Source: Akkermansiaceae bacterium (GTDB taxonomy: Bacteria; Verrucomicrobiota; Verrucomicrobiia; Verrucomicrobiales; Akkermansiaceae). From it: a stretch of 64,000 nucleotides of DNA. Each line of letters starts with the position of its first letter. The first letter of the stretch is position 1. The stretch spans positions 62,001-126,000 of the forward strand of contig JAPKDJ010000001.1 of NCBI GenBank assembly GCA_026421245.1, read 5' to 3'. Positions 18,401-35,665 of the stretch are shown here, in pieces. The notes under the pieces were generated by a model. The model worked only from the letters and a program-made list of their open reading frames with translations. It was not told the origin of the DNA and did no database searches. Both the position numbers and the translations under genes were made by a program.

Positions 18401-21400
18401 TTAATTCGCCCGTTCCCGATCCGTTTTCTCCGGACCGTCCCGCCAATACCATCGCCAGGCCCGTTTCAGATCCTCCAGCATTAGGAAATTGACCGGCACC
18501 AAGAAGAGGGTGATGAGCGTTGAAAAGAGAATGCCGTATCCGAGAGAGATTGCCATTGGAATGAGAAACTGCGCCTGCATGCTTGTCTCAAACATCATCG
18601 GCATCAATCCGGCAAAGGTCGTGACTGAGGTCAGCATGATGGCCCTGAAACGGGCTCCGCCTGCCGAGATCACGGCGTCGTGAAGATCCATTCCTTTAGA
18701 GCGTTTTCCGTTGATATAGTCCACCATGACGAGGCTGTCATTGACCACCACTCCGGCTAGGGCGAGAAGTCCGAAGAGGCTGATAATGCTGAGCGGATGC
18801 CCCATGATCATGTGGCCCGCGATTGCTCCGGCGAGGCCGAAGGGAATGGCCGCCATCACGATGAAGGGCTGCATGTATGATTTCAGTGGGATCGCCAAAA
18901 GGGTATAGATGAGGAAAGCCACGAAAGCTGCGCCGATGGAAAGACTGCGGAAGGCATCGGCTTGCTCGCGCGCTTCGCCCTCGAAGGAATGATGCATCCC
19001 AGGATACTCCGCGACAATTGCGGGGAGCTCTTTTTCCAAGGCTCTCGTTACCGCTCCCATGTTCACTTTTTCCTTATTGGCATCCGCCGTGATATCGATG
19101 GTGCGATTGCGATCGATGCGCCGGATCGAGGTGAAGCCCGATCCAATTTCGGCATTGGCGACCGCCGAAAAAGGAACCTCGGCACCATCGGGCGTGCGAA
19201 TGCGCATGCGTTCGAGTTGGCTGATTGAGGAGCGATTTTCCTTCGGATAACGCACCATGACGCGGACATCTTCGCGACCGCGCTGGATACGCTGGGCCTC
19301 GGCTCCGAAGAAGGCCTCTCGCGTCTGCCGGGCGAGATCATTGGTGGTCAGCCCGAGTGCTTCCGCCTCGGGTTTGATCGTCAATTTGACCTCTTCCTTG
19401 CCCGCATCGTAACTATCACTGATATCGGAAAGATGGGGGATTGTTGCCAAGAGTTTCTTCACCGCATCGGCGGCTTCCGCCAGTTCATCGAAGTCTGGTC
19501 CGGTTAGGCGAACCTGCACCGGGGAGCCTCCGCTATTGCCCTTGGCTTCGCCAGAGTAGCGAATCTCCTCGACGCCCGGCAGGTTACCAACCTTCTCCCG
19601 CCATTGCCTTTCCAAATCCTTGACCGTGACGATCCCGTCCCGCTGCTGGCCTGGTAAAAGCTCCACCATGACCTTTCCGCGGGACTCGCCTTCGGTGTAG
19701 GCGATGATCCCTGTGATGACGCTGTTGCCTCGTTTGGCATCGAAGTATTCCTCCTGCAAGGCCTCGGCGCCGGAACTAATTTGTTCCAAATAGCCGATCG
19801 TCGTTTCGGCGGAGGTGCCGTCCGGCATGATAAGGGAGACCTGCACCATGTCGCCCTCTACCGTGGGCATGAAAACAAAGCGCACCCGGTTGCTCGCGAC
19901 CATTGCGCTCAGAATCACCAGCGTGGCGAAAAAAAGAGCTACGGTGAGATAGCGATGACGGGCGGCGGTTGCCAAAGCGGGTTGGTAGACTTTGACCGCG
20001 AACTTGACCAAGCCATCGGAAAAGATCCGGCGGAAGCGTTCGAAGCGGTTCACCTTATCGGTTGGGCGGTCGAGTCGACGGAGGTGTTTGAGATGGGAGG
20101 GCAGGATGAGCTTCGACTCGATCAACGAGAAAATCAGGACTGGAATCACGACCAGGGGGATGGGCTCGAACATCTTCCCGGCCACTCCTTCAACCATGAG
20201 CATGGGAGCGAAGGCGGCGATGGTGGTGAGCACGCCGAAGATCACTGGCATTGCCACTTCACGCGCCCCGACAATCGCCGCCGTCTCGGTGTCGGGCTGG
20301 ATCGAGAAATTGTGATAGATATTTTCCCCGGTCACGATGGCGTCATCTACCACGATCCCGAGCACGAGGATAAAGCCGAAAAGACTGATTAAATTAATGG
20401 TCACTCCGAGGTAGGGCATCAGCCCGATCGCCCCCATTAATGAGACCGGAATCCCCATCGCAATCCAGAACGCCAGTGAGGGACGAAGGAAAAGGGTTAG
20501 CACGAAGAGGACCAGAACGAAACCGAAGACCGCGCTACTTTTCAGGGTGTCGAGACGGTCAGCGACAATCACGGAGGTGTCTCCCCAATAGTGGATTTCT
20601 GCGCCCTCCGGAATCAGTCTGCCGCCGTCACCCTTGAAAAAATCCTTGATCGTTTCGGCAATCCTTACTGAGTCCTGTTCGCCGACCCGGGAGACTTGCA
20701 CCATGACGCAGGGCTTGCCATCGAAGCGCACCATCGCCGGGATTTCGTCGAAACCATCGGTGATTTTGGCGATCTCGCTCAGCTTGACGCGCGAGCCGTC
20801 GGAATTGGTCAGGACCACGATGTCGCGAAAATCTTGACCTACGTAGGCCTGCCCTTCGGTGCGCAGTAGGATATTTCCGTGGCGGGCCTTAATCGCTCCA
20901 GCGGGTAAATCGATCGACGAACGCGAGATCGCCTGACTGATTTCACTTATCGTCAGACCGTAACGCTCGAGCGTTTCTTCGGTTACCTCGATCGCGATTT
21001 CATACGGTCGCACGCCGAGAAGTTGGGTTTGCGAAATGCCGGGAAGATTGGTCACTTCATCGCGTACGATCTCGCCCAGTCGACGCAATCCTCGCTCCGG
21101 CATCTCGGCTGAAATCACCACCATCAGGACCGGAATTTTGATTTGCGGAATGCTGATGATGGGTTTTTCCGTCTCCGCCGGAAAGGTGCTGATTGCATCG
21201 ACTCGGGCTTTGACCTCATCCAACAGGATCCGTTTGTCATAGCCGGTATCGACTTCGATGGTCACCGATCCCGCGCCGGGCGCGGCCATCGAATTGATAT
21301 GCTTGATCCCTTCCAAATCATGGATCGCTTCCTCCACCCGAAGGATCACTCCTTTTTCGGATTCCACCGGGGTCGACCCACGGTAGGGAACGGTGATTGT

Positions 21401-21541
21401 GATGAGGTCGAGTTGGGCGTCGGGAAGAATATCAGTCGCGAGCGGCTTGAGCAGGGCCTTCACCCCCAGCGCCACGATCGTGATCATGAGCAGGTTGGCC
21501 GCGACGCTATTGCGGGCGAACCATGCGATGGGACCTTTCAT
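18401..21541 (-). CDS. RND efflux transporter, inner-membrane permease (AcrB-like)
   Basis: 1046 residues, the usual AcrB/D/F length. It is the proton-driven pump of a tripartite exporter spanning the envelope. The N-terminus 'MKGPIAWFARNSVAANLLM' gives TM1, and two large periplasmic loops alternate with two sets of six helices. The proton-relay acidic pair of TM4 is present in 'GIVVDDAIVTGENIYH'. The C-terminal half repeats the fold with 'LLALAGVVVNDSLVMVDYI'. It overlaps the adaptor gene by an ATGA. Overall it resembles drug-efflux (HAE) rather than metal-efflux pumps, but the substrate cannot be read from the sequence. The 206-bp gap after it holds only the inverted repeat listed above and a CGATTT/AAATCG mini-hairpin (18255-18270). 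Confidence 0.95.
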   Translation of the reverse strand: MKGPIAWFARNSVAANLLMITIVALGVKALLKPLATDILPDAQLDLITITVPYRGSTPVESEKGVILRVEEAIHDLEGIKHINSMAAPGAGSVTIEVDTGYDKRILLDEVKARVDAISTFPAETEKPIISIPQIKIPVLMVVISAEMPERGLRRLGEIVRDEVTNLPGISQTQLLGVRPYEIAIEVTEETLERYGLTISEISQAISRSSIDLPAGAIKARHGNILLRTEGQAYVGQDFRDIVVLTNSDGSRVKLSEIAKITDGFDEIPAMVRFDGKPCVMVQVSRVGEQDSVRIAETIKDFFKGDGGRLIPEGAEIHYWGDTSVIVADRLDTLKSSAVFGFVLVLFVLTLFLRPSLAFWIAMGIPVSLMGAIGLMPYLGVTINLISLFGFILVLGIVVDDAIVTGENIYHNFSIQPDTETAAIVGAREVAMPVIFGVLTTIAAFAPMLMVEGVAGKMFEPIPLVVIPVLIFSLIESKLILPSHLKHLRRLDRPTDKVNRFERFRRIFSDGLVKFAVKVYQPALATAARHRYLTVALFFATLVILSAMVASNRVRFVFMPTVEGDMVQVSLIMPDGTSAETTIGYLEQISSGAEALQEEYFDAKRGNSVITGIIAYTEGESRGKVMVELLPGQQRDGIVTVKDLERQWREKVGNLPGVEEIRYSGEAKGNSGGSPVQVRLTGPDFDELAEAADAVKKLLATIPHLSDISDSYDAGKEEVKLTIKPEAEALGLTTNDLARQTREAFFGAEAQRIQRGREDVRVMVRYPKENRSSISQLERMRIRTPDGAEVPFSAVANAEIGSGFTSIRRIDRNRTIDITADANKEKVNMGAVTRALEKELPAIVAEYPGMHHSFEGEAREQADAFRSLSIGAAFVAFLIYTLLAIPLKSYMQPFIVMAAIPFGLAGAIAGHMIMGHPLSIISLFGLLALAGVVVNDSLVMVDYINGKRSKGMDLHDAVISAGGARFRAIMLTSVTTFAGLMPMMFETSMQAQFLIPMAISLGYGILFSTLITLFLVPVNFLMLEDLKRAWRWYWRDGPEKTDRERAN

Positions 21542-22731
21542 TCGCTTTCCTCCGGCGTGATCCGTTCCCTTGGCTCGACCAAGCTGCCGTCAATTGCGAA
21601 GGGCAGGGCGGTCAGGCAGATCCGCTCGCCTTCTTCCAATCCCTCGCTGACGATTAAATTGGGGAGGGAATCGAAAATCACCGTCACTTCGCGAAGACGG
21701 ATACGGTTTTCTTGGTCAATGATTTTCACCTGATTCCCGAAACGCACTGCTTGTTCCGGAATGACAAAAACTCCTTCTAGCGTTTTGCCTTCGATCTCCG
21801 CGCTTACAAATTGTCCGACTTTCAATGGCGGACGTTTCTTATCATTCAAGGCGTAGGGATCATCGACCTGTGCGATCACAAAAAGCTTCCGGGAGCGCGC
21901 GTCAAATTCTCCCTCGGCCCGCACCAAGCGCCCTACCCAAGGCGAGCTTGGGATATTAGAATCCCGCAGTAAAACCTTCGGCTGCTTCTCGCCCACCGTC
22001 ACCCCGAGACGGTAGCGCTGTGGAAGATCGAGGAATTTAAGATCACCGGGATCGATTGGCAAGCGAACCTCGACATAGTCGATTGCGAAAATTTCTGCGA
22101 TGGGCGTTCCCGGACTGACGACCTGTCCGAGATCCACACTCTTATCGCGGACATAGCCGGGGTATGGAGCTGCGATTTTGGTCCGTTCGAGATCGCGCTG
22201 GGCCCGCGCGAGCCGGGCTGCCGCTGCTTCCGAAGCCGCTCGTGCTTCGGCCAATTGTGGCTTGCGCATCGTAAGATCGCTCGGCTCGCCGCCTCTTCCT
22301 AAGTCACGCCACGCCGCGACCGCCTGCTTCGCTCGGGCCACTTCTAACGCGAGCGCAGCCGTCGATTGAGCCAAGGTCGCTTCCGCTTCCGTTTCCGCCG
22401 CGCGATAGTCCGCTTCATCGAGCTCGATCAAAACTTCCCCCGCTTCGAAAAATCCCCCGTTGCGAAAGGCGGGCGAAACGCGGATCACCTCGCCCGAGAC
22501 CTGCGGAATCAGGGTGCTTTTGGTATGCGGTAAAACTTCCCCGCTGGAAACGAGGGTGACTTGATGGCTCCCTTTCCGGGCGACGACGAATTCGGCCCGT
22601 CTCACATCCTCGGGAGCTTCCACCGTTTTTACCTCGATCCGGTTCTTCATCATCCATGACGCCGCTGCTCCTGCTACTCCCAGCACCACCACGGCGGGAA
22701 CGAATGCCTTCAGGATTTTTTTAGATGTCAT
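21538..22731 (-). CDS. RND efflux periplasmic adaptor (membrane fusion protein)
   Basis: 397 residues from the ATG at 22731, which overlaps the stop of the outer-membrane gene as ATGA. An open frame extends upstream to 22932, but that part lies inside the neighbour and has no signal-like sequence. The N-terminus 'ILKAFVPAVVVLGVAGAA' is a single anchor or signal. A lipoyl/barrel region ('VTLVSSGEVLPHTKSTLIPQ'), an alpha-helical hairpin (about 95-165) and the return 'IAAPYPGYVRDKSVDLGQVV' follow, which is the HlyD/AcrA layout. It joins the pump to the outer-membrane channel. The operon order is outer membrane, adaptor, pump, with a 4-nt overlap at each junction. Confidence 0.93.
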   Translation of the reverse strand: MTSKKILKAFVPAVVVLGVAGAAASWMMKNRIEVKTVEAPEDVRRAEFVVARKGSHQVTLVSSGEVLPHTKSTLIPQVSGEVIRVSPAFRNGGFFEAGEVLIELDEADYRAAETEAEATLAQSTAALALEVARAKQAVAAWRDLGRGGEPSDLTMRKPQLAEARAASEAAAARLARAQRDLERTKIAAPYPGYVRDKSVDLGQVVSPGTPIAEIFAIDYVEVRLPIDPGDLKFLDLPQRYRLGVTVGEKQPKVLLRDSNIPSSPWVGRLVRAEGEFDARSRKLFVIAQVDDPYALNDKKRPPLKVGQFVSAEIEGKTLEGVFVIPEQAVRFGNQVKIIDQENRIRLREVTVIFDSLPNLIVSEGLEEGERICLTALPFAIDGSLVEPRERITPEESE

Positions 22732-24164
22732 GGTCGTGATTGGAAATCCCCGCCGAGTGCGAGGTGAAGATCGATGCGGTTTTGAAGGCGGAGGTTCTTG
22801 AGTTGCAGGAGTCCGCTGCTGGCGTTGAAGGAGCGTCGCTGGGCTTCCAACCAGGTCAATCCGTCTACTAATCCACCGGAATATTGGGCCCAAGCTAATT
22901 CCTCTGCCTTCGTCGATTCTTCCGCCGCCCATTTCTGGGATCGGAGCTGGCTCTCGAGAAAAACCTCGGCCGCCAAGGCAGTCTCGATCTCACCAAAGGC
23001 CTGCAGGGCATTTTGCCGGAAGCTTGCGAGGGCTTCGTCATAGCGGCCTTTTGCGGCTTCGATTCCTCCTTGGATCCGCCCCCCGTCGAAGAGTGTCTGG
23101 CCGATATTGGCCCCGATGGAACTCGCGAGGTAATCCGGATTGAGAAGCTTTCGGAGCTCACTGCTGGTGGTTCCACCTCCCACCGTGAGAGTGAAACTCG
23201 GGAGGAATTGTTTCTTGGACTCTGCGCCCCGCTCGGAAGCTGCCGCGAGCCGGAATTTCGATGCCCGAAGATCGGGGCGACGCTCAAGAAGAGCTGACGG
23301 AAGGCCGCTCGGAACCTCGACTACGAGATCAGGGAGACTTTGTGAGACCCGCAACTGCCGCGCTGGGTAGCGTCCGACGAGGATCTCGAGCGCGCGCGTC
23401 GCCTGATCGAGTTGCCGACTTTGCGCGTCGAGATTACTGCGGGCATTGGCGACATTTGCGCGGGTCAGGCGGAGATCGAGAGCTTCCGAAGTTCCCAGAT
23501 CAATGCCGCGCTCTACGAATTTCAGGTTCTTCTCCAGGCTCGTCACCGTCTCGCGAGCCAATCGCACCTGCTGCTCAAGTTCGGCGGCATTGAACCAGGA
23601 GCGGGCGATATTGGCCGCCAACGAAAGCCGGAAGGCATGAAAATCCGCTGCGCTGGCATTGGCATCTGCAAGGGCCGCTTGCGTGCGATTTCGTAAGCGC
23701 CCCCAGAGATCGATTTCCCAATTCAAACTTGCTCCGATGTCATGCGTCGTCGTGTAATTTGTAACCGTTGAACCGCCAGGAATCTCCGCCACCCCGCGCC
23801 TTCGCGTCGTGCCCCCGCTTGCCGAAATTTGAGGTAGCTCGGTAGCCCGGGTGACCCCCGCATTCGCCCGCGCCGCCCGAAGCCTTCCCGCTGAAGCGGC
23901 AAGATCCTGATTCGATCTCATCGCCTCGCTTACCACCGCACTGAGTCTGGGTTCTGAAAAATCGCGTAACCACCCGCTCGCCGCCCGCCCTGGAATCGTC
24001 CGCCCCGACATGAAACTCTCCGGAACCATCACCTCGTCGCCAGTCCGTGGCACCGCAAGATCGGAGCACCCACAAGCCCCCAGTCCAAAAGCCAGAAGAA
24101 CAATGCGTGAAATCGGAGAAGTCAAAAGAGGGAAATAAGGTGGGACTTCAAATGGTTCGCACAC
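22728..24164 (-). CDS. Outer-membrane efflux lipoprotein (NodT/TolC family)
   Basis: 478 residues. The N-terminus carries a lipoprotein-type signal ending 'LLAFGLGACGCSD'; acylation at one of the two Cys is likely. The chosen start may be a little too far upstream, because the signal begins only around residue 17. Two long helical repeats of the OEP family follow, seen in 'DLAASAGRLRAARANAGVTR' and 'ERRPDLRASKFRLAAA'; the second contains the NodT-type 'RRPD(I/L)RA' motif. The trimer would form the outer-membrane channel of the tripartite exporter. It is the first gene of the operon. The 158 bp upstream contain no gene and no clear regulator-binding site. Confidence 0.92.
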   Translation of the reverse strand: MCEPFEVPPYFPLLTSPISRIVLLAFGLGACGCSDLAVPRTGDEVMVPESFMSGRTIPGRAASGWLRDFSEPRLSAVVSEAMRSNQDLAASAGRLRAARANAGVTRATELPQISASGGTTRRRGVAEIPGGSTVTNYTTTHDIGASLNWEIDLWGRLRNRTQAALADANASAADFHAFRLSLAANIARSWFNAAELEQQVRLARETVTSLEKNLKFVERGIDLGTSEALDLRLTRANVANARSNLDAQSRQLDQATRALEILVGRYPARQLRVSQSLPDLVVEVPSGLPSALLERRPDLRASKFRLAAASERGAESKKQFLPSFTLTVGGGTTSSELRKLLNPDYLASSIGANIGQTLFDGGRIQGGIEAAKGRYDEALASFRQNALQAFGEIETALAAEVFLESQLRSQKWAAEESTKAEELAWAQYSGGLVDGLTWLEAQRRSFNASSGLLQLKNLRLQNRIDLHLALGGDFQSRP

Positions 24165-25366: not shown

Positions 25367-25467
25367 AATGGGGTGCAACAAGTTGAAACGATCGCCGTAG
25401 GTCTGGCAAGGAAGCCTTTACATTCTATTTACACACAGGGCGGGAAAGTTGCGCTTAATCTGTCTCC

Positions 25468-27684
25468 ATGACACGAGGAGGATTTACAAAGCGCGCCATG
25501 TTTGCGGGAGGGGGAGCTTTCATTTGGTTGCCGGCCAAGGCGCAGCATCATGCTCATCCACATCATTGGTCGATGCCGCATGTGCGTCCACGTCCCAATC
25601 ATCCAGCCACGCTCAAGGTGACCCAGATCGAGGCTAATGTTACCATCAAGGGGCAGGTTGCGACGACGGAGTTACTTCTCTCGTTTCAAAATCCAGGCGG
25701 GGCCGCCAAGGAAGGGCGTGCCCTTTTGCCGGTTCCGAGTAAGGCAACCTTGAAGTCCTTCGCGATGGAGGGACCGAGCGGGAAGATCGAAGCAGAACTT
25801 CTGCCCAGAAAAGAGGCCCGCCAAATTTATGATGAGATTGTCAGCCGATTAAAAGATCCTGCCATTCTTGAGTTCGCCGGATTGGGCGCCGTGAAGACGG
25901 GGGTCTTTCCGGTGCCTCCCAGAAAAACAGTGCGACTGCGGATGGTTTATGAGGAGCTGTTGTCAGCCGAGGGTGATCGGGTTGACTACACGCTGCCCCG
26001 CACGCAAGCGATGGTTTCCGATGCTCCTCCGTGGAAGATTTCGGTGGATTGGAAGGAGGCGGGTGGAATTCGCACCCTCTATTCTCCTTCGCACGAAATT
26101 AAACTGGAGCGCGATTCCGGGAAGAAGGTTTCGTTTCAGCTCGCTGGGAAAATTAACCCGGGGCCGCTGCAGGTCTCCATTCTGAAGCGTCGCTCGAAGC
26201 AAGCGGTCGCGAGCTTTCTCTCCCACTCTGAAAAAGATGATCAGGGATATTTCCTCATGCTGCTGTCCCCCCCGGAGCGCGATGAAAATGCTCCCCGCTT
26301 TAAGCGGGACGTCACGCTGGTGATGGATCGTTCGGGGAGCATGGCGGGCGCGAAGTTGAAGCAAGCCCGTGCCGCCGCCCGACAGGTTTTGGGAGGCTTG
26401 GAAGATGGCGAGCGTTTCAACCTCATTACTTACAATGAATCGGTCGAAAGCTTCGCCGAACAACCGGTCGAACTGAACGAAGAGGTTCGCAAAAATGCCC
26501 ACCAATATCTCGACCACCTCCGCGTGAGTGGTGGCACCAATATCCACGACGCTCTCACCACTGCGCTCGGGCAAGTCACGAAAGAGGGCTTCCTTCCGAT
26601 GGTTCTTTTTCTGACTGATGGCCTCCCAACGATTGGTGAGACCTCCGAGGTCAAGATCCGCGAGTCTGTTGCCAAAGCGAACGGCGGAAAGCGTCCCATC
26701 TTCACCTTCGGCGTGGGGGTTGATGTGAATACGCCGCTCCTCTCGCGCCTTGCTGATGACAGCCGTGCCGTTCCGACTTTTGTCCTGCCGAGTGAAGATG
26801 TGGAGCTGAAGGTGGCCCGTGTTTTTCGTCGGCTCTCCGGTCCCGTTCTTCGCTCGCCCAAGCTCTCAGTGGGTGGCGACCCCGGCCGCATCACGGATCT
26901 CCTCCCCTCAGCTCTCCCTGACTTTTTTGAGCAGGATCAGATCGTTTTAGTGGGACGTTATTTCGGCCAAGAAAAATTGGAATTCACTTTGAAAGGTCAC
27001 GATGGACGAGATGAGAAGACCTTCACCTTTGACTTTAAGCCAAGCGCTAAAAGGAACTCTGACTTCGTCCCACGCCTCTGGGCCACGCGCAAGATTGCGG
27101 TGCTCACCGAGGCTCTCCGCGATCTCGGGGCTGACTCCTCGATGATGGGGCTCACCGGAAATGCGACTTCCGCCAATGATCCTCGTATGAAGGAATTGGT
27201 CGATGAGATTGTCCGACTTTCCACCGAGTATGGCATCCTGACTGAATACACCGCATTTCTTGCGAGGGAGGGGGAGGTCTTCAACTCCCGCGATGCTCAA
27301 AACAGGATCGCGACCGGAAACTTTGTCGGTCGTGCTCTCAAGAAGCGCAGCGGCAATGCCGGGGTGAATCAAGAAATGAATCTCCAGAAATCGAAGACCG
27401 GAACCGTTGATAAATTCAACCGCTACGTGAACGAGGACCTCAAAGAGGAGGCCGTGATGAAAGTGCAGCAAGTCGGTCACAAGACTTTCTGGGGCCGGGG
27501 CGACCAATGGGTTGATGCTGAGGCCACCAATCTCCCCGCTGCCAAGTCCACCACGGTTGAAATCGGGAGCCCTGAGTTCTTCAAGTTGGTCGACCGCCTC
27601 GTCGCTCTGAATGAACAGAGTTCCCTTGCTCTCGGCAGCAAAACCCAGCTCATGATCGATGGGAAACTTTACCAACTTCGCTAA
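25468..27684 (+). CDS. VIT and von Willebrand A domain protein
   Basis: 738 residues. The N-terminus ('TKRAMFAGGGAFIWLPAKA') resembles an export signal, possibly a Lys-Arg variant of a Tat signal, and is followed by a His-rich stretch (about 27-49). A VIT domain spans about 45-170, with 'RKEARQIYDEIVS' and the 'FPVPPRKTVRLRMVYEELL' strands. The VWA domain carries a complete MIDAS 'DRSGSM' (Asp287 to Met292) and 'FLTDGLPTIGE'. The C-terminal part resembles inter-alpha-trypsin-inhibitor heavy-chain-like bacterial proteins, with 'ILTEYTAFLAREGE'. It is the first of four co-oriented genes (a second VWA protein, a response regulator and a histidine kinase). The function is unknown; metal-dependent protein binding in the envelope is the family expectation. 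Confidence 0.9.
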   Translation: MTRGGFTKRAMFAGGGAFIWLPAKAQHHAHPHHWSMPHVRPRPNHPATLKVTQIEANVTIKGQVATTELLLSFQNPGGAAKEGRALLPVPSKATLKSFAMEGPSGKIEAELLPRKEARQIYDEIVSRLKDPAILEFAGLGAVKTGVFPVPPRKTVRLRMVYEELLSAEGDRVDYTLPRTQAMVSDAPPWKISVDWKEAGGIRTLYSPSHEIKLERDSGKKVSFQLAGKINPGPLQVSILKRRSKQAVASFLSHSEKDDQGYFLMLLSPPERDENAPRFKRDVTLVMDRSGSMAGAKLKQARAAARQVLGGLEDGERFNLITYNESVESFAEQPVELNEEVRKNAHQYLDHLRVSGGTNIHDALTTALGQVTKEGFLPMVLFLTDGLPTIGETSEVKIRESVAKANGGKRPIFTFGVGVDVNTPLLSRLADDSRAVPTFVLPSEDVELKVARVFRRLSGPVLRSPKLSVGGDPGRITDLLPSALPDFFEQDQIVLVGRYFGQEKLEFTLKGHDGRDEKTFTFDFKPSAKRNSDFVPRLWATRKIAVLTEALRDLGADSSMMGLTGNATSANDPRMKELVDEIVRLSTEYGILTEYTAFLAREGEVFNSRDAQNRIATGNFVGRALKKRSGNAGVNQEMNLQKSKTGTVDKFNRYVNEDLKEEAVMKVQQVGHKTFWGRGDQWVDAEATNLPAAKSTTVEIGSPEFFKLVDRLVALNEQSSLALGSKTQLMIDGKLYQLR

Positions 27685-27704
27685 TCTCAAATCTAAATAA
27701 TATT

Positions 27705-28838
27705 ATGAAAAAACATCCGAAAACTCTTGTCGCCCTCTGTGGCGCACTTCTCTTCAATTCAGCTCCGGCTCAGGAGGAGATCAAACCCAAGGACGGTCAG
27801 TCCAAAGTCCAGATCGCGATCCTTCTTGATACGAGCGGTAGCATGAGCGGCCTCATTGAGCAGACCAAAACGCAGCTTTGGAAAGTCGTAAATACCTTCA
27901 TCGGCGCGAAGCAGAATGGGCAGGTTCCTTTTGTGGAAGTCGCTCTGTATGAATATGGCTCAGGCTCTGGAGAGAATTTTATTCGCCCGATTCAGACGCT
28001 GACGCGGGATCTTGATCAAATCAGTGCGGATCTCTTTTCGCTTAAGACGAGTGGCAGCCAGGAATTTTGTGGTGCGGTCATTTCTGAAGCGACCACGAAG
28101 CTCAAGTGGGACGCCTCGCCTGATGTTTACAAGGCGATCTTCATTGCTGGCAACGAGCCCTTTACCCAGGGGCCGGTTGACCCGAGCGAGGCTTGTAAGA
28201 AGGCCATCGCGAAAGGAATCATCGTGAACACCATTCACTGTGGGACCGAAGCGGAAGGGATCAATGGAGGTTGGAAATCTGGAGCCTTGCTTGCGGATGG
28301 AAACTTTCTCGTCATCAATCATAACGCCGCTGTGGTCCATATCGAAGCACCACAGGATGCCGAGATTGTCGCGCTGAATGAGAAGCTTAATAAAACCTAC
28401 ATCGCTTATGGCAAAGAAGGGGCGGTCAAAGCCGAATCACAAGTCGCGCAGGATGGCAATGCGCTCAAAAAGAAAAAATCAGGGGCTGCGGTGCAACGTG
28501 CCGTGACCAAGTCGAGTGGCAACTACTTTAACGCCAGTTGGGATCTCGGTGATGCTTCCAAGGACAAGAATTTTGACTGGACCAAGGTAAAGGACAAAGA
28601 CCTTCCCGAGGAGATGAAGAAGCTTGACCTTGAGGGGCGCAAAAAATTCGTCGCCGACAAGCTCGCTGCGCGCACGAAAGTTCAGAAGGAGATTCAAACT
28701 CTCAATGAAGCTCGCAAAAAATTCGTCGCAGGGAAGCGGAAGGCAGATGCGGAGGGCGGTGAGGAAACCCTCGATGTTGCAGTCACAAAAACAGTGCGCG
28801 ACCAAGCTGCTAAAAAAGGGTATCAGTTTAAAAAGTAA
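27705..28838 (+). CDS. Secreted von Willebrand A domain protein
   Basis: 377 residues with a signal peptide (about 1-22, ending 'NSAPAQ'). The VWA domain starts near residue 35 and has an intact MIDAS 'LLDTSGSMSGL' (Asp42). The later 'GSQEFCGAVISEA' and 'IFIAGNEPFTQGP' are consistent with the VWA fold. The C-terminal third is Lys-rich and helical (about 245-377). It starts 20 bp after the VIT-VWA gene and ends 6 bp before the response regulator, so all four genes are probably one operon. It may work as a partner of the VIT-VWA protein; no direct evidence. Confidence 0.9.
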   Translation: MKKHPKTLVALCGALLFNSAPAQEEIKPKDGQSKVQIAILLDTSGSMSGLIEQTKTQLWKVVNTFIGAKQNGQVPFVEVALYEYGSGSGENFIRPIQTLTRDLDQISADLFSLKTSGSQEFCGAVISEATTKLKWDASPDVYKAIFIAGNEPFTQGPVDPSEACKKAIAKGIIVNTIHCGTEAEGINGGWKSGALLADGNFLVINHNAAVVHIEAPQDAEIVALNEKLNKTYIAYGKEGAVKAESQVAQDGNALKKKKSGAAVQRAVTKSSGNYFNASWDLGDASKDKNFDWTKVKDKDLPEEMKKLDLEGRKKFVADKLAARTKVQKEIQTLNEARKKFVAGKRKADAEGGEETLDVAVTKTVRDQAAKKGYQFKK

Positions 28839-28844
28839 GCGCTC

Positions 28845-29534
28845 ATGCCAGTCCCCACCATACTCGTTGTTGAAGACGACGCCGCCGTGCGTCGCGGGGT
28901 CGTCGATGCCCTGACCTATGCCGGATATGAGGTTTTAGCGGCGTCCGATGGTCGGGAAGGGAGAGAGGCGGCCTTGACGGCTCGCTACGATCTCCTCCTC
29001 CTCGATCTTATTCTGCCGCACTATACCGGCTTCGAAATCCTCGAAGCTCTTCAAGGAAATCGGGCGGGCCAAGCGGTCATTATTCTCTCTGCGAAAGGGG
29101 AGGAAAATGACCGCATCAAGGGGCTTAAGATGGGGGCCGATGATTACGTCATGAAACCCTTCAGCGCGCGCGAACTTTTGGCGCGGGTTGATGCCGTTCT
29201 TCGTCGCACGACGGAGCGGCAGGCCTTGGGGCAAAAGCATGAAGTGGCCGGACGGGTGATTGATCTGACTTGCGCCGAGATCGTTTATGATGGAGCTCGT
29301 CAGGAACTTTCCGAACGAGAGGTGGGTGTGTTGAGATACCTTATCGCTAACCCTGCGCGCCCCGTTCCGCGCGATGAACTTTTACGCCATGTCTGGGGGA
29401 TCGACCCCAATCGAATTGAAACCCGTACGGTGGACATGCACATTGCCCATATTCGCAAAAAGCTGGGTGATCATTCCCAGAAAATCCTCGAGACGGTTCG
29501 TGGTCGCGGCTACCGTCTTGCTCCGAAATCATGA
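28845..29534 (+). CDS. OmpR/PhoB-family response regulator
   Basis: 229 residues. The receiver domain (1-120) has the acidic pair 'VVEDDAAV' (Glu10-Asp12), the phosphorylated Asp54 in 'LLLLDLILP', and the conserved Lys104 in 'YVMKPFSARELL'. The C-terminal winged helix (about 130-229) has 'LSEREVGVLRYLIANPARPV' and 'VDMHIAHIRKKLGD', typical of the OmpR/PhoB DNA-binding fold. It overlaps the histidine kinase by 4 nt and is its obvious partner. The genes controlled are unknown; autoregulation of the VIT/VWA locus is an inference from the operon. Confidence 0.96.
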   Translation: MPVPTILVVEDDAAVRRGVVDALTYAGYEVLAASDGREGREAALTARYDLLLLDLILPHYTGFEILEALQGNRAGQAVIILSAKGEENDRIKGLKMGADDYVMKPFSARELLARVDAVLRRTTERQALGQKHEVAGRVIDLTCAEIVYDGARQELSEREVGVLRYLIANPARPVPRDELLRHVWGIDPNRIETRTVDMHIAHIRKKLGDHSQKILETVRGRGYRLAPKS

Positions 29535-31339
29535 ATCGTTCCTGGCTCATTTGGGTGGTTTTGGTGGGGTGTGCGGCACTCATTCTGGGAATGTTTGCTT
29601 GGATCACGGAGCGTGCCCTGACTTCAGAAAAAGAACGGGCCGAGGCTGAGGCACAATCTCTTCTGGGTGAGCGGGTTCGGCTTTCGCTTTCCCGGATGGA
29701 TGGGATTGGCTCTGATCTTCTTGTTGCCGAGAACCTTCGGGCACCGATGTTTTTTCGGGCGTATTTTTCGCCGGCCAACATTGTCACAAATCAGTTTCAG
29801 AATGTGGAACAAGGGATCGTGCTTCAGCCGTCTCCTTTGCTCGTCGAAGAGGTGGACTTCATAAATCTTCACTTCGAAGTGAGTCCTCGGGGCGAGGTCA
29901 GCTCGCCCCAGGTTCCGAGAGGAAATCAACGGGAACGCGCCCTTGGCTCGGGTTTGGACCAAAGGAGGTTGGAGATGATGGATACTCGTTTTGAAGCTCT
30001 TCAGAAAGTGCTTCCCAAACGATCGGCGATGGCTGCCGTCTTTGGGCACGAGGTGAAAATTAACGAACCCGAGACACAGGCCGCGAATAAATGGTTGAGT
30101 GAGAATGCTGCCCAAATTGCTCCGCAGAAACCAAAGGTCAAAGAGGAGTATCAGGAGAAACTTGTCCAACGGGAACAGGCTTCTCGCTCGAAAGCCTACG
30201 TTCAGAAAATCGAGAAAGCTGCTAAGAAGTCCGCCGACTGGGGAAATACAAAGTCCCTCAATATGCCATCGGGGCCTGATCCCGACGGAATCCTAAGCGT
30301 CTCACCATTCATGCCTCTCTGGCATAATGCCGAACTGTTTTTTGTCAGGGAAGTCCGGAGGATGAGAAGCTGGACCTACCAGGGATTTTGGATCGCCAAG
30401 GAGGAATTAAAAAGCGCCCTCATGGCGGAGGCACCTTTGGATCTTGGGCAGGCTTACCTAGTCCGAGGTGACCAGTCTCCAGAGAATCCCGATCGCCTTG
30501 TTTCCCTTCCATGGGCTTTATTGACCAGCCCTGCTCCTGATATTGAGATTCCGGCACTGACGCCTCTTCGTAAAACGCTCATCGCGGGATGGATTGCGGC
30601 CGTGGCTGCATTGCTTGCGCTCTGCCTACTTCTGGCCGGAGTGATGAAACTCAGTGCGCGACGTGCGGCCTTCGTTTCTTCCGTGACCCACGAATTGCGG
30701 ACTCCTCTCACGACTTTTCGGCTCTATTCGGAAATGTTAGCCGATGGAATGGTCACCGATGAAGAGAAGAAGCAGGATTATCTCCGGACCATGCAAAGTG
30801 AATCCGAAAGACTCAATCACCTTGTTGAAAACGTTCTTTCCTATGCCCGCATCGAGCGGGGGAATGCTCGTTCGAAGTTCGAGAAACTCGGTGTCGCCGA
30901 TCTCATCGAGCGAATGCGCCCAGTCCTTCAGCGTCGGGTTGACCAGGCGGCGGCGGCGCTTTCAATCGAGATCGCCGCCGATCTCGGAAAAGTCGAAACC
31001 GATGTCAGAGCGGTGGAGCAGATCCTTTTTAATTTGATCGATAATGCCTGTAAGTATGGCCTCCTCGAGGGGCAGCAAGGTCATGTTACCTTGGATGTCC
31101 GAAAGGGGCGACGAGGGATTATTTTTGAAGTCAGAGATGAGGGGAGGGGAATCGATCGGGCGGAAAAGAAGCGGCTCTTCAGAGCATTTCACAAGAGTGC
31201 CCACGATGCCGCCCACGACAAACCCGGAGTGGGGCTTGGGCTTGCCTTGTGCCGGCGTTTGGCCCGGGCCCTTGGTGGCGATCTGGAGCTCGGAAGCTCT
31301 CGGGAGGGAGGCGCGAGCTTTGTGTTGAATCTTCCCTAA
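29531..31339 (+). CDS. Sensor histidine kinase with a large extracytoplasmic domain
   Basis: 602 residues. TM1 (about 5-25) and TM2 (about 352-372) enclose a roughly 325-residue sensor region of no recognised family. It contains a basic coiled-coil-like part (about 175-245, 'KPKVKEEYQEKLVQREQ'). The catalytic core is complete: the H-box 'SSVTHELRTPLTTF' with His387, the N-box 'NLIDNACKYG', the G1 box 'DEGRGID' and the G2 box 'GVGLGLALCRR'. The sensor probably detects something in the periplasm; the two VWA proteins encoded upstream are possible partners. The start ATGA overlaps the response-regulator stop. Confidence 0.95.
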   Translation: MNRSWLIWVVLVGCAALILGMFAWITERALTSEKERAEAEAQSLLGERVRLSLSRMDGIGSDLLVAENLRAPMFFRAYFSPANIVTNQFQNVEQGIVLQPSPLLVEEVDFINLHFEVSPRGEVSSPQVPRGNQRERALGSGLDQRRLEMMDTRFEALQKVLPKRSAMAAVFGHEVKINEPETQAANKWLSENAAQIAPQKPKVKEEYQEKLVQREQASRSKAYVQKIEKAAKKSADWGNTKSLNMPSGPDPDGILSVSPFMPLWHNAELFFVREVRRMRSWTYQGFWIAKEELKSALMAEAPLDLGQAYLVRGDQSPENPDRLVSLPWALLTSPAPDIEIPALTPLRKTLIAGWIAAVAALLALCLLLAGVMKLSARRAAFVSSVTHELRTPLTTFRLYSEMLADGMVTDEEKKQDYLRTMQSESERLNHLVENVLSYARIERGNARSKFEKLGVADLIERMRPVLQRRVDQAAAALSIEIAADLGKVETDVRAVEQILFNLIDNACKYGLLEGQQGHVTLDVRKGRRGIIFEVRDEGRGIDRAEKKRLFRAFHKSAHDAAHDKPGVGLGLALCRRLARALGGDLELGSSREGGASFVLNLP

Positions 31340-31351
31340 TCCGAACTGGGA

Positions 31352-34300
31352 CTATGGTGCGGAAACGATCCGCACGCGATAGAATCTGCGGACTTCGTCG
31401 GGTGTGATGGAGAGGGACTCCTGAAGTTCGTTCCCTGCCACAGTGACGGAGCTTCCAGTGAGATTGGTGTTACTCCAGGTGGCCAAATCATCTGAACTTT
31501 GAATCTGCCAAGTGACTTCATTAGCGAAAGGGTTGCGGGTAAAGTTCAGCGAGAGACTATTTCCAGATGTGCTGATCGAAACCGGGTTTTCACTAGCAAG
31601 TGCCGGATTGGTGCCGAAGAAATATTCGGCAAGATTTGTGAGTCCATCTTCATCGTCATCACCATTGGGCTCGCCAGGGTAGAGGACATCAGGAAGTCCG
31701 GGATTTCCTCCTGAGATATCCGAGGCTTTCCAGCTGGTGGGGAGCCCGTGATTTGGATTCGAGAGGGGATCGACGAGCACCAGTGATGTTCCAAGGCCAT
31801 CGGCACTGGGGGGCCAACCTAGACTTGCGTCGTCATCGTAGTCGAAGCTTTGGATTAAGCTGTTATCGTTGGCAGCGAGGATGATGGTCTCGCCACCGTT
31901 TGAGAAGCTGCTCTCAAAGTTTCCGGGAGCTAGCAAGAAACCGCTTTCCCCATAGGATGCGATAAAGGTATCGCGATCCCTGGTGATGACGGTCCGTTGG
32001 AGGGGTTGCAGAACAAAGCCCGCGGGGAAGGTGTAAAGGATTCCATCGGTAAAGCTGACGTTGGTGAGGTCAAGAGTCAGTTCGGGGTTGATGTTGAGAA
32101 TCTCGATGAACTCAAGATTTTCATCAGGTCCCTGGGGATTATACATGATCTCGGAGACAACAATGCCTCCGGAGGAGGCGGGAGTCCCTACGATAAAATC
32201 TGCTTCGCGGAGGGCCGACCATTCGCCATTTGACAGGGTTCGTGATTTAACGATTCCGGTCTGCGTGAGATTGACAACATTTCCTCCCAGGGCATTTTTT
32301 CGTTCGATGACTGACATCTGGATTCCGAGATCCGAATTACCTGGGGAGAAGTTGTGCAATTCCACGGCAATGGTGTTTGTTCCCTCTTGAAGCTCGCCGG
32401 GAGCCAGAGAGTAATTAAAAATGACGGGCTCGGATTCAGAGTCGGCAGGGCCAAAATCGGAGTAGTTGACCACGGGGTTTGTAAAGTTATCGCGGTGGAT
32501 TTCACGGCCATTCAAGTAAACGATCATGGCGTCATCACGGATGATGTTAAAAATCAATTCGGGGATATCGATGGCGTCGGCGACCTGAAAATCCTTCCGG
32601 AAGTAGACAGTGGGATAGGCTCTGCCAAAGGGTCCAATGTTTAGAATGGTGTTGGGCGTGGGAATGCCGGTGACCGCGTTGGCCAACCGCCCAGCAAGTG
32701 GTCCTTGTGCTCCATTTGGGTTGATTGCGGGATCCGGTGCCCAAGTGTTGTCATGAAAGGCAGGGTGTTTCCAGTCATCTGTGCCATACGAGGGGTTTTC
32801 AACCACAACATTGCTCGGGGATAGTGCGGTGGTGCCGGTGAGGTAAGTCCAGCCGAAGTCATTGATTCCGACGATCTCTGTTTCGATAAATCCACCAAAG
32901 GTGCCGGCCGTCGGGTTAACGCTACCTCCGGAAAGGCGGGGGTCCGAACCATCCGAGGTGAAGTAGACAGCCCCATCAGGAGTGGTCAGTTGAAGCGGGA
33001 AGTTCATGGGAACGACCCCCCCAAATTGTGAATACTGGGGAGGGTCAATGGAGGGATAAAGCTTCTGTCCTCGGAGTTCCCGAATGAATGCCCGAGAGTT
33101 GTCGAGATCGTGAAGAGTGGGGAGGTAATTGTCGGTGATATTTTCAATTTCCTTCACCCAGTGTTGCTCTCGGGTGAAGTAGATGGGGGAGTTGATGGTG
33201 GGTGGGTAGTGGTCGCTGTTGATGTTTGCGCTACTCGACGGGGTGTTCCCATACGGGGTGGAAGCTTGGACATCACCCCAGCGGGCTGACTCGGCAACGA
33301 TGGCCTTGTCGATTTGGTTGTTGATTTCAAGAAAGCTTAGAATGGTGTTTTCCACCGTGAGAGCGCCATCATCATGAAGATGTTTGTAGACGCGGTCTGC
33401 GAAGAGCATTTTAAAATCGTCATTCCGACGAAGACGCTGGAAAGGCAGCATGCCGGTTCGTGAATCGTTGTAGCGATTCCAGGAATACTTATCGAAAGCG
33501 ATTTCCTGGTCCCAGACGTTAAAACGATAACGGCCATCTCCGCTGAGAGCGTTGGCCGCAGCATAAGAGTTTTTGGTAGGCCAATCTTCGGAGTCGCCAA
33601 AGAGGTGAAGGATGACCCAATCGGCATAGTTTTCGACATCGATTTTGGTCTTGGCGGTTTCGTAGACGGCGGGGCTTGAAACGCCGCTACCCAGAGTGGA
33701 AAGCATGGAGTTCCAAAGTGGCCCGGGAGAGCCAAGGTCGGCGTTGACCTCCCAGTCTTCTTTGTTTCCACCGAGGTGATCGGCGTAAAAGTCATCTTCA
33801 ACTCGTTCACTCAGATTATGAAGCCCAAAGTAGGCTCCGTTGACGTAAAGGTGGATGAAGTTACCATAAGATGAGGGTTGTCCCATATCACGGAAGAGTT
33901 CCTTCATCCAAACATCACGGGTGTAGAGCGAGTCGTTTGGGCGGTAACGGGCGGAACTCCACGAGGCAAGAGCCCAAGAGTCGGTAAAGCATGCCCTAAG
34001 AACGAGCTTGTTAAATTCATCGACCGGAGATTCCGGGAAAAGGTTGTATTTTAGTTTCCCAATTCCAACGGATGAAGAAAAGGTGAGGCGGAGGGAATGC
34101 TTTTGCATCCGGTTTGGAGTCCGGGAGGAGTTACCGTGTGTTTCGATTTTGCAGTCTTCCTGGAACCCCCGGCTCCCATCCGGGAGGATGTATTCCACCG
34201 AGCAGATCCGTTCAAAGCGGTCGCGAGGAGTGCCATAAAGGCTCTTGGGTGATGTGGAGGTTCCGGTGCGGGTTGTGACAAAATCCTCCTGCTTCATGGT

Positions 34301-35665
34301 GAGGGATACGCTGGGAATATCGAGAAGGGCATCTCGAATCGTGTATCCCGGGGAGCGCAGATTCAAGGTGTCATTGACGACCCGTGGATCCATGTCGTAG
34401 TCGGCCGGAATGACCCGTCGGACCTGGCCGTCATAGCCCCAATTTTCGGCCCAGCCGTTGGCGATGAGGTCTGCTGAGTTCTGGGTCGCGACGTCGTCGA
34501 CAAAGATGTAACTGTGGGTGTCGACGTTTGTGGGGATGAGATCTCGTGAATCGAAGACGGCGATGGCGCGAACATTTGTGGTGGTATCGATGGTAATGGG
34601 ACCAGAGTAGGTTGTTCCGTTTGTGAGTGTTGGGAGCGATCCATCGAGGGTGTATCGAATGGTGGCTTCTCTGGTTTGACAGGTAATTTTGAGTTCGAAG
34701 GGGGCATCGTAAAAGCCCCGGTCGAAGCTGAAGTTGGTGTCTTTCACAACTCCGGGAGCGCCTGTTCCAATATTTGCAGCACCGGGGGTGGGTGATGAAA
34801 AAAAGCGCCGGCCTCCACCCCTCGACGGCCGGCCGTAGGAAATGTCGGTGAATTGTTCGGGGTAGGCGGGGCGAATAATGTCTTCGATGAATTCTCCGTC
34901 GGGATTGACCAGGGCAAGGTATTCGCCCGAGTTCGAGAGCCGGAAGTTGGTATGGGGATTTCCGGCCGGGTCGGTGAGGTTATCGCCCGAGGCAAAAATG
35001 ATCCGATACCCCCGTATCCCAATACTGACTGCGGGGAAGGCCCACTTTGTTGGGGTCTCCACGTCATCTGTCAGATAATACCCGGAAAGAGCGATAGAGG
35101 TGGAATTTGGGTTGTAGATCTCGATCCAATCGGACCGGCTTCCATTACCATCTTCAAATCCGGTTTCGTTGCTGACGGAAATCTCATTGATTTCCAGGGG
35201 CAGGAGACCGTCAGGTTTCTCGGCCGCGCTGTTGGGATTGGTTTTTTTTACCAATTCCACCCGGTCATTGAAGCTGTCGTTGTCGCTGTCTTCATCGTTG
35301 GGGTTTGTGATGGCTCCCATCGCTCCGGTGACCTCTGCTCCATCGAGTCGTCCGTCGGCATCGCTGTCAGGGTTGAGAGGGTCGGTTCCGGTATCAGTCG
35401 CGGAGGTGAAAGTGCCATTCCCGGTTTCGAGATGGTCTTGAAGTCCGTCGTCGTCCGTGTCGGCTTTTGTTGGATTTGTTCCCACAGTTTGTTCGGCAAG
35501 GTTGTCCAGGCCGTCGGCATCGGGATTTGCGGATCCGGTGGTGGTTTCGAGAGTGAGGAAGTAGGTGAGTTCCCACGAATCATCAAGACTATCGCTGTCA
35601 GAATCGATAAACACTTGGCCGTTTAGGACGGCAATGAGCGGGAAAAAAAAGAGGAGAAATTTCAT
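31352..35665 (-). CDS. Giant secreted protein with Ca-binding repeats, lamin-tail and CotH domains
   Basis: 1437 residues. A signal peptide (about 1-16) is followed by thrombospondin-type-3-like Asp-rich repeats ('DSDSDSLDDSW', 'DTDDDGLQDHLETG', 'PDSDADGRLDGAE'), then a lamin-tail domain ('EINEISVSNETGFEDGNG', 'WIEIYNPNSTSIALSGYYLT'), a chitobiase-type C-terminal strand ('TIRYTLDGSLPT'), and a CotH-like domain (about 430-830, 'HLYVNGAYFGLHNLSERV', 'FNVWDQEIAFDK'). A second lamin-tail domain and a C-terminal 'WQIQSSDDLATW...RRFYRVRI' segment follow. CotH proteins are atypical kinases; activity here is unproven. It is 18 bp downstream of a longer paralogue. Likely on the cell surface or released. 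Confidence 0.88.
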   Translation of the reverse strand: MKFLLFFFPLIAVLNGQVFIDSDSDSLDDSWELTYFLTLETTTGSANPDADGLDNLAEQTVGTNPTKADTDDDGLQDHLETGNGTFTSATDTGTDPLNPDSDADGRLDGAEVTGAMGAITNPNDEDSDNDSFNDRVELVKKTNPNSAAEKPDGLLPLEINEISVSNETGFEDGNGSRSDWIEIYNPNSTSIALSGYYLTDDVETPTKWAFPAVSIGIRGYRIIFASGDNLTDPAGNPHTNFRLSNSGEYLALVNPDGEFIEDIIRPAYPEQFTDISYGRPSRGGGRRFFSSPTPGAANIGTGAPGVVKDTNFSFDRGFYDAPFELKITCQTREATIRYTLDGSLPTLTNGTTYSGPITIDTTTNVRAIAVFDSRDLIPTNVDTHSYIFVDDVATQNSADLIANGWAENWGYDGQVRRVIPADYDMDPRVVNDTLNLRSPGYTIRDALLDIPSVSLTMKQEDFVTTRTGTSTSPKSLYGTPRDRFERICSVEYILPDGSRGFQEDCKIETHGNSSRTPNRMQKHSLRLTFSSSVGIGKLKYNLFPESPVDEFNKLVLRACFTDSWALASWSSARYRPNDSLYTRDVWMKELFRDMGQPSSYGNFIHLYVNGAYFGLHNLSERVEDDFYADHLGGNKEDWEVNADLGSPGPLWNSMLSTLGSGVSSPAVYETAKTKIDVENYADWVILHLFGDSEDWPTKNSYAAANALSGDGRYRFNVWDQEIAFDKYSWNRYNDSRTGMLPFQRLRRNDDFKMLFADRVYKHLHDDGALTVENTILSFLEINNQIDKAIVAESARWGDVQASTPYGNTPSSSANINSDHYPPTINSPIYFTREQHWVKEIENITDNYLPTLHDLDNSRAFIRELRGQKLYPSIDPPQYSQFGGVVPMNFPLQLTTPDGAVYFTSDGSDPRLSGGSVNPTAGTFGGFIETEIVGINDFGWTYLTGTTALSPSNVVVENPSYGTDDWKHPAFHDNTWAPDPAINPNGAQGPLAGRLANAVTGIPTPNTILNIGPFGRAYPTVYFRKDFQVADAIDIPELIFNIIRDDAMIVYLNGREIHRDNFTNPVVNYSDFGPADSESEPVIFNYSLAPGELQEGTNTIAVELHNFSPGNSDLGIQMSVIERKNALGGNVVNLTQTGIVKSRTLSNGEWSALREADFIVGTPASSGGIVVSEIMYNPQGPDENLEFIEILNINPELTLDLTNVSFTDGILYTFPAGFVLQPLQRTVITRDRDTFIASYGESGFLLAPGNFESSFSNGGETIILAANDNSLIQSFDYDDDASLGWPPSADGLGTSLVLVDPLSNPNHGLPTSWKASDISGGNPGLPDVLYPGEPNGDDDEDGLTNLAEYFFGTNPALASENPVSISTSGNSLSLNFTRNPFANEVTWQIQSSDDLATWSNTNLTGSSVTVAGNELQESLSITPDEVRRFYRVRIVSAP

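Follow-up and report, generated by a model that had tools for sequence, protein, structure and literature searches.

A conserved VIT-VWA, VWA and two-component operon of an Akkermansiaceae bacterium and its candidate direct-repeat operator

When exported VWA-domain proteins are encoded next to a two-component system, do they present the signal to the sensor kinase, or are they what the system controls? We address this question for a four-gene locus in a 64,000-nucleotide stretch of DNA from an Akkermansiaceae bacterium (assembly GCA_026421245.1, contig JAPKDJ010000001.1, positions 62,001 to 126,000 of the forward strand; “the window” hereafter means this whole stretch). Along the plus strand, the locus encodes a VIT-VWA protein (25468-27684, 738 aa), a second VWA protein (27705-28838, 377 aa), an OmpR/PhoB-type response regulator (28845-29534, 229 aa) and a membrane histidine kinase (29531-31339, 602 aa), with gaps of 20, 6 and −4 bp, the last being an overlap. 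Both VWA proteins are predicted to be exported from N-termini read by eye. The list of open reading frames (ORFs) and Pfam agree with an earlier note on this DNA, made from its letters alone, which had placed the four genes here and the regulator and kinase at 6 and −4 bp. Our answer is that the four genes probably form one operon, in which an autoregulated two-component system holds two exported VWA proteins under its control. Comparison between genomes shows four conserved features: the order of the genes, the joint occurrence of VWA protein and kinase, a direct-repeat box, and the position of that box.

We looked in 141 genomes of the bacterium's own order for matches to the N-terminal 379 residues of the kinase, to the VWA protein and to the VIT-VWA protein, and counted co-occurrence from the single best match per genome for each query. 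The kinase query matched in 65 genomes and the VWA query in 63, with both matching in 54 (Fisher p = 2e-28, kinship being ignored). A VWA match of at least 200 bits was found in 54 of the 141 genomes, all 54 of which carry the kinase; the 9 genomes with a VWA match only are every one below 200 bits, and some of the 11 with a kinase match only have weak ones (18-22 bits). In 45 of the 54 genomes with both, the VWA gene lies at most 4 kb upstream of the kinase gene on the same strand. The VIT-VWA gene is additionally upstream of the VWA gene in 25 of these 45, a count that includes a genome with no regulator between VWA and kinase (G024), one with a stop codon interrupting the VIT-VWA gene (G097) and one whose VIT-VWA gene is cut by a contig end (G098). 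Among the window and 60 stretches fetched for protein matches, a regulator match lies between VWA and kinase in 29 of the 30 sequences holding both on one strand; for about 15 further genomes with this order, outside the fetched set, the VWA-kinase spacing fits a regulator. The conserved gene order that the earlier note looked for is therefore present, and rather than occurring mostly without VWA neighbours, the two-component genes have a VWA gene directly upstream in 45 of the 65 kinase-bearing genomes. Because it recurs across the order, the four-gene arrangement is, on this sequence comparison, not the product of chance.

Box positions, intervening regulators and Planctomycetota kinases were counted with tblastn. 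Neighbouring genes, the G097 split and the Planctomycetota regulator-kinase ORFs were read with a simple script that takes the longest ORF; it placed some starts wrongly and masked some genes. The split itself is found in an Akkermansia-like genome (L119, 8839-11147), whose relatives in the genus have the VIT-VWA gene whole.

Upstream of the first gene, at 25417-25438 of the plus strand, lie two direct repeats of 11 bp each, TTTACATTCTA followed by TTTACACACAG, which we propose as the operator and which relatives retain at this position. The box TTTACATTCTATTTACACACAG begins at 25417, with 51 bp from there to the VIT-VWA start codon. TTTAC-N6-TTTAC has one copy in the window and none in 100 shuffles, and TTTAC-N6-TTTACA has a single copy in the organism's own 4.32-Mb genome (reversed-pattern control, none). 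Across the window and the 60 fetched stretches, 915 kb in all, every one of the 35 exact boxes falls in the interval from 260 bp upstream to 60 bp downstream of the extrapolated start of a VIT-VWA, VWA, response regulator, rhodanese or HEWGTF gene, a target that spans about 2% of both strands (estimated as 114 genes x 320 bp). When aligned, these boxes give the consensus TTTACA-NN(C/G)NN-TTTACAGACG. They are followed by A at offset 39 in 29 of 35 cases and by T at offset 43 in 26 of 35, resembling a −10 element of the form TAnnnT; our candidate in the window is TAATCT (25456-25461, plus strand), a hexamer shifted by one base relative to the alignment. The second repeat is directly followed by a conserved AGACG, which would fall at about the −35 position. 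The VIT-VWA start codon lies approximately 6 bases past the proposed −10 element, and since only these few bases separate them, the operon mRNA may be leaderless or nearly so. The proposed TAATCT promoter is not among the sites listed by a consensus promoter scan of the region, and sigma-70 and terminator scans of the operon region gave no more matches than shuffled sequence.

The strongest evidence that the VWA genes are targets of the same regulator comes, at the level of DNA comparison, from genomes in which the two halves of the system are apart. Seven genomes were fetched whose VWA locus is separate from the regulator-kinase locus, and in four of them (G132, G056, G066 and G105) an exact box stands at both units. 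A fifth (G012) has an exact box at the regulator and a 9/10 match at the VWA gene, a sixth (G003) has a box at the regulator alone, and the seventh (G129) has one at neither unit. The earlier note had offered the VWA proteins either as presenters of the signal or as targets; the box before the operon, together with the boxes at both units in four of seven split genomes, favours targets. Other genes may share this control: in G041 a separate box lies 53 bp upstream of a second VWA paralogue, and boxes also precede genes for a SIMPL protein (G087) and an ARPP-1 protein (G033). A periplasmic rhodanese gene (one copy of the protein was scanned against Pfam) lies between VWA and regulator in G029, G079 and G064, and directly before the regulator in G109, G123 and G126, all three without VWA. 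Three genomes (G056, G066 and G084; loci L137, L140 and L154) have in common a boxed gene whose product is large, exported and marked by the motif RERERTIYVPY; a single copy, when scanned, matched no Pfam family.

The box also appears to vary with the protein that would read it. A regulator helix, TRTVDMHIAHIRKKL, is common to the window regulator and its boxed relatives, and regulators of boxed loci have the form TRT(V/I/L)DMH (EMH in L182), which, by analogy with PhoB, would be the DNA-reading helix. Akkermansia-like regulators have TRSIDTT in that helix, and where the box would stand their operons have a changed repeat, TGTAAC-N5-TGTAAC. For two other OmpR-type regulators from the organism's own genome, the helix differs and their stretches have no box.

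Several observations weigh against control through this box. An exact box is present in 34 of the 61 sequences and absent from 27; the places without one include G091 (8/10 bases match), both units of G129, the VWA unit of G003, and G024, which also lacks a regulator between VWA and kinase. Boxes had already been noticed before rhodanese and HEWGTF genes when these two families were taken in as queries, and 31 of the 35 boxes are accounted for without them. With one mismatch allowed, a scan of the own genome gave 5 matches versus 7 in the control and added no site, and four one-mismatch sites inspected there had no clear target. Across 23 genomes the box pattern gave 60 matches against 24 for the reversed control, so many lone box matches elsewhere may be due to chance. 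Furthermore, the Akkermansia-like loci are nearly identical to one another and count as about one observation.

Judged by domain content, the regulator-kinase pair is an ordinary OmpR/PhoB-family two-component system. Pfam matches over the cut-off were obtained for Response_reg (95 bits) and Trans_reg_C (81 bits) in the regulator, and for HisKA (69 bits) and HATPase_c (82 bits) in the kinase. The “new sensing system” that the earlier note thought possible is too strong a term, both proteins being ordinary in their conserved domains. For kinase residues 1-377, which include a periplasmic sensor between two predicted membrane helices, the Pfam scan lists no family. Cys14, within the first of these helices, is invariant in 28 of 28 aligned kinases, and the middle of the sensor (residues 145-255) is hypervariable in length and sequence among relatives, with both flanks conserved. 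A structure model of the sensor (mean predicted local distance difference test score, pLDDT, 86.8) gave nothing convincing with Foldseek (best E 0.29), and the beta-lactam sensors among its rows were set aside as noise (TM below 0.15). In a second structure comparison (VIA-align), the rows were mostly dCache sensors at Z 6-7.8, a range where common arrangements also score. We take the sensor as weakly dCache-like, a lead only.

From these elements we infer the following course of events. The kinase would sense something outside the inner membrane through its weakly dCache-like domain and, as is usual for its family, would phosphorylate the regulator. The regulator would then bind both copies of the 11-bp repeat (25417-25438), a site expected to overlap the −35 region, and, as the conserved positions suggest, would activate a transcript that starts at or near the VIT-VWA start codon. 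Such activation would raise VIT-VWA, VWA, regulator and kinase together. As for the purpose, envelope homeostasis is our guess, because the other boxed genes also appear to encode mostly exported proteins.

The VIT-VWA protein matches the Pfam families VIT (61 bits) and VWA (58 bits), and its metal-ion-dependent adhesion site (MIDAS) is complete, with D287, S289, S291, T357 and D384 in 57 of 57 aligned homologues. The second protein matches VWA at 27 bits; all 20 aligned homologues keep D42, S44 and S46, and T115 is nearly invariant, but the DxSxS/T/D set is incomplete at the final Asp, which is replaced by Asn (N150) in all 20. Of the two exported MIDAS proteins that the earlier note described, the first thus stands as claimed and the second has an altered site. 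The second protein also has a predicted long C-terminal helix (residues 309-348). The VWA structure model (mean pLDDT 85.8) matches VWA folds in Foldseek (best E 8.8e-07); its top matches include Bacteroides BatB and inter-alpha-inhibitor heavy chain 1.

The upstream neighbour of the operon is a divergent GFO/IDH/MocA gene, and downstream a convergent CotH/LTD gene ends 12 bp from the kinase stop codon; with one neighbour divergent and the other convergent, the four-gene operon stands alone. The downstream gene (31352-35665, minus strand) encodes a 1437-aa exported protein with two lamin-tail (LTD) domains, a CotH kinase domain and chitobiase-like domains (Pfam). Farther upstream, a resistance-nodulation-division (RND) efflux operon occupies 18401-24164 of the minus strand, with an AcrB-type permease (18401-21541), a 464-aa ORF (21538-22932) and an outer-membrane efflux protein (22728-24164).

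How far does this association extend beyond the order? A search for the VWA family in named genomes gave at least 568 relatives, from which 80 loci were retained. The neighbours of VWA in these loci are VIT-VWA (40), histidine kinase (26) and response regulator (25), with any other gene at 5 or fewer. The VIT-VWA/VWA pair occurs in both gene orders and in many phyla, outside Verrucomicrobiota mostly without a two-component system, and thus is, as far as such loci indicate, more widespread than the regulator-kinase pair. Among Verrucomicrobiota loci, a (T/G)TTAC-type box stands at the starts of these genes in 20 of the 24 that have a two-component system next to them and in 5 of the 9 that do not; the corresponding figures for Planctomycetota are 3 of 3 and 13 of 21. 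Such a box was also found in one Acidobacteria-labelled metagenome-assembled genome (MAG) and one unlabelled MAG. The 21 loci from other groups have none at these gene starts. Prosthecobacter is represented by MAGs (L160 and L164). In 898 kb, 49 boxes were counted on the plus strand, just 2 of them elsewhere, and the script counted 3 on the minus strand; the 260-bp limit excluded L211, where a GTTAC-type box lies 51 bp before the script-called ORF start. Elsewhere the same pair may be under other control, as in three loci (L209, L210 and L231; one Bacteroidia, two Spirochaetes) with a gene for a sigma-70-type, extracytoplasmic-function-like (ECF-like) factor two ORFs upstream of VWA. In two further loci (L232, a Verrucomicrobia MAG, and L234, a Flavobacteriaceae MAG), a SIMPL (DUF541) gene is directly downstream of VWA.

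In six Planctomycetota genomes, KTTACA-N5-KTTACA gave 34 matches versus 8 in the control. The sole match in G141, a single chromosome, is at the VIT-VWA operon, and G144 and G146 have 13 and 7 matches. G142, G143 and G145 have a box before VIT-VWA and another 61-66 bp before a separate regulator-kinase pair. Those regulators are 68-70% alike and those kinases 54%, and the kinases align to the window kinase only from residue 350 on (from 147 on in one gapped alignment).

These distributions bear on the alternative in which the VWA proteins, as accessory periplasmic proteins, present or modulate a signal at the kinase sensor, either in addition to their role as outputs or in place of it. Known systems do include periplasmic feedback partners; LuxQ, with solved structures that include a complex with its binding protein LuxP, is among the weak sensor fold matches; and no genome of the 141 has a VWA match of at least 200 bits without the kinase. 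Set against these points are the 11 of 65 kinase-bearing genomes without a VWA match (some of their kinase matches being weak), the many phyla with the pair and no adjacent two-component system, and the Planctomycetota kinase that has a boxed promoter and a different N-terminal half. Because 11 of 65 kinase genomes do without VWA and the kinase of the boxed Planctomycetota pair (at least three genomes) matches the window kinase only in its kinase half, signal presentation is not a general rule, and we regard it as unlikely here.

A second alternative would make the regulator and kinase the PhoB-PhoR phosphate system, the VWA pair part of the Pho regulon, and the 11-bp repeat a PHO box in its layout. 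PHO boxes consist of two 11-nucleotide direct repeats (PMC4415409), and PhoB is the best NCBIfam match of the regulator. That match, at 181.6 bits, is far under the PhoB cut-off (TIGR02154, 296.2), and another regulator scores higher as PhoB in 8 of 8 Verrucomicrobiota relatives (for example 217.6 versus 180.5 in G134). In the own genome another regulator likewise scores 195.7 versus 181.0, none passing the cut-off; the box occurs there just once, and no PstB over the cut-off was found in the assembly. We dropped Pho regulon membership on the grounds that the regulator is under the PhoB cut-off and is not the best PhoB of its relatives, and consider this alternative very improbable. Kinship of the operon with the dedicated sortase system of Proteobacteria, prompted by marine sortase target being the best NCBIfam match of the VIT-VWA protein, is hardly credible and membership is refuted, given scores of 225.6 bits against a cut-off of 551.65 (TIGR03788) for that protein and 55.4 against 612.2 (TIGR03785) for the kinase, and a marine sortase absent from 6 of 6 genomes searched, although the VIT-VWA proteins may possibly share ancestry with those of sortase systems.

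Probable control of the VWA pair by its neighbouring two-component system would give a small regulon around a widespread VIT-VWA/VWA pair that is readable through a conserved DNA site, and in this lies the novelty. A literature search, at the level of result lists, returned no paper on this operon and no role for the widespread bacterial VIT-VWA proteins. A defined regulator, a DNA site and a partner gene offer a direct way into VIT-VWA function; the boxed promoter could be used as a reporter for the signal, and in genomes with scattered genes the box could help to enumerate targets. More tentatively, the locus could belong to an undescribed envelope response of Verrucomicrobiota and Planctomycetota, with an autoregulated two-component system, a shared operator (T/G)TTACA-N5-(T/G)TTACA, an ancient VIT-VWA/VWA pair as core output, and exchangeable extra outputs (periplasmic rhodanese, SIMPL and other exported proteins). 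If the operator is truly common to the two phyla, it would provide a rare readable regulon in poorly studied bacteria.

Among known systems, the Bat (aerotolerance) proteins resemble the window pair as bacterial VWA proteins tied to stress; the bacterial folds that the VWA model matches best include BatB and a membrane protein related to aerotolerance. In RavA-ViaA, ViaA is linked to Cpx and Zra2 (PMC10848872). Unlike Bat and RavA-ViaA, the window operon has no MoxR-type ATPase seen beside it, whereas one lies downstream of the pair in a Phycisphaerales locus (L173). The cre tag, TTCAC-N6-TTCAC, has the same spacing as the window box. CreBC of E. coli and relatives is also similar in being a small regulon with a membrane/envelope gene, creD, as marker target (PMC4689548, PMC5402928 and PMC3962086). 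Membership in CreBC was rejected, as the regulator scores 151.9 against the CreB cut-off of 273 and the kinase 113.2 against the CreC cut-off of 356. PhoB/PhoR shares the OmpR/PhoB-type regulator, a kinase with HisKA and HATPase_c, and 11-nucleotide direct repeats (PMC4415409). The proposed targets here, in contrast to PhoB/PhoR, are VWA proteins. The dedicated sortase system (TIGR03784, TIGR03785, TIGR03788), which, to judge by the TIGRFAM names, groups a VIT-VWA sortase target with a sortase, a histidine kinase and a response regulator, is alike in coupling a VIT-VWA protein to its own two-component system, whereas the window operon has a second VWA protein in place of the sortase.

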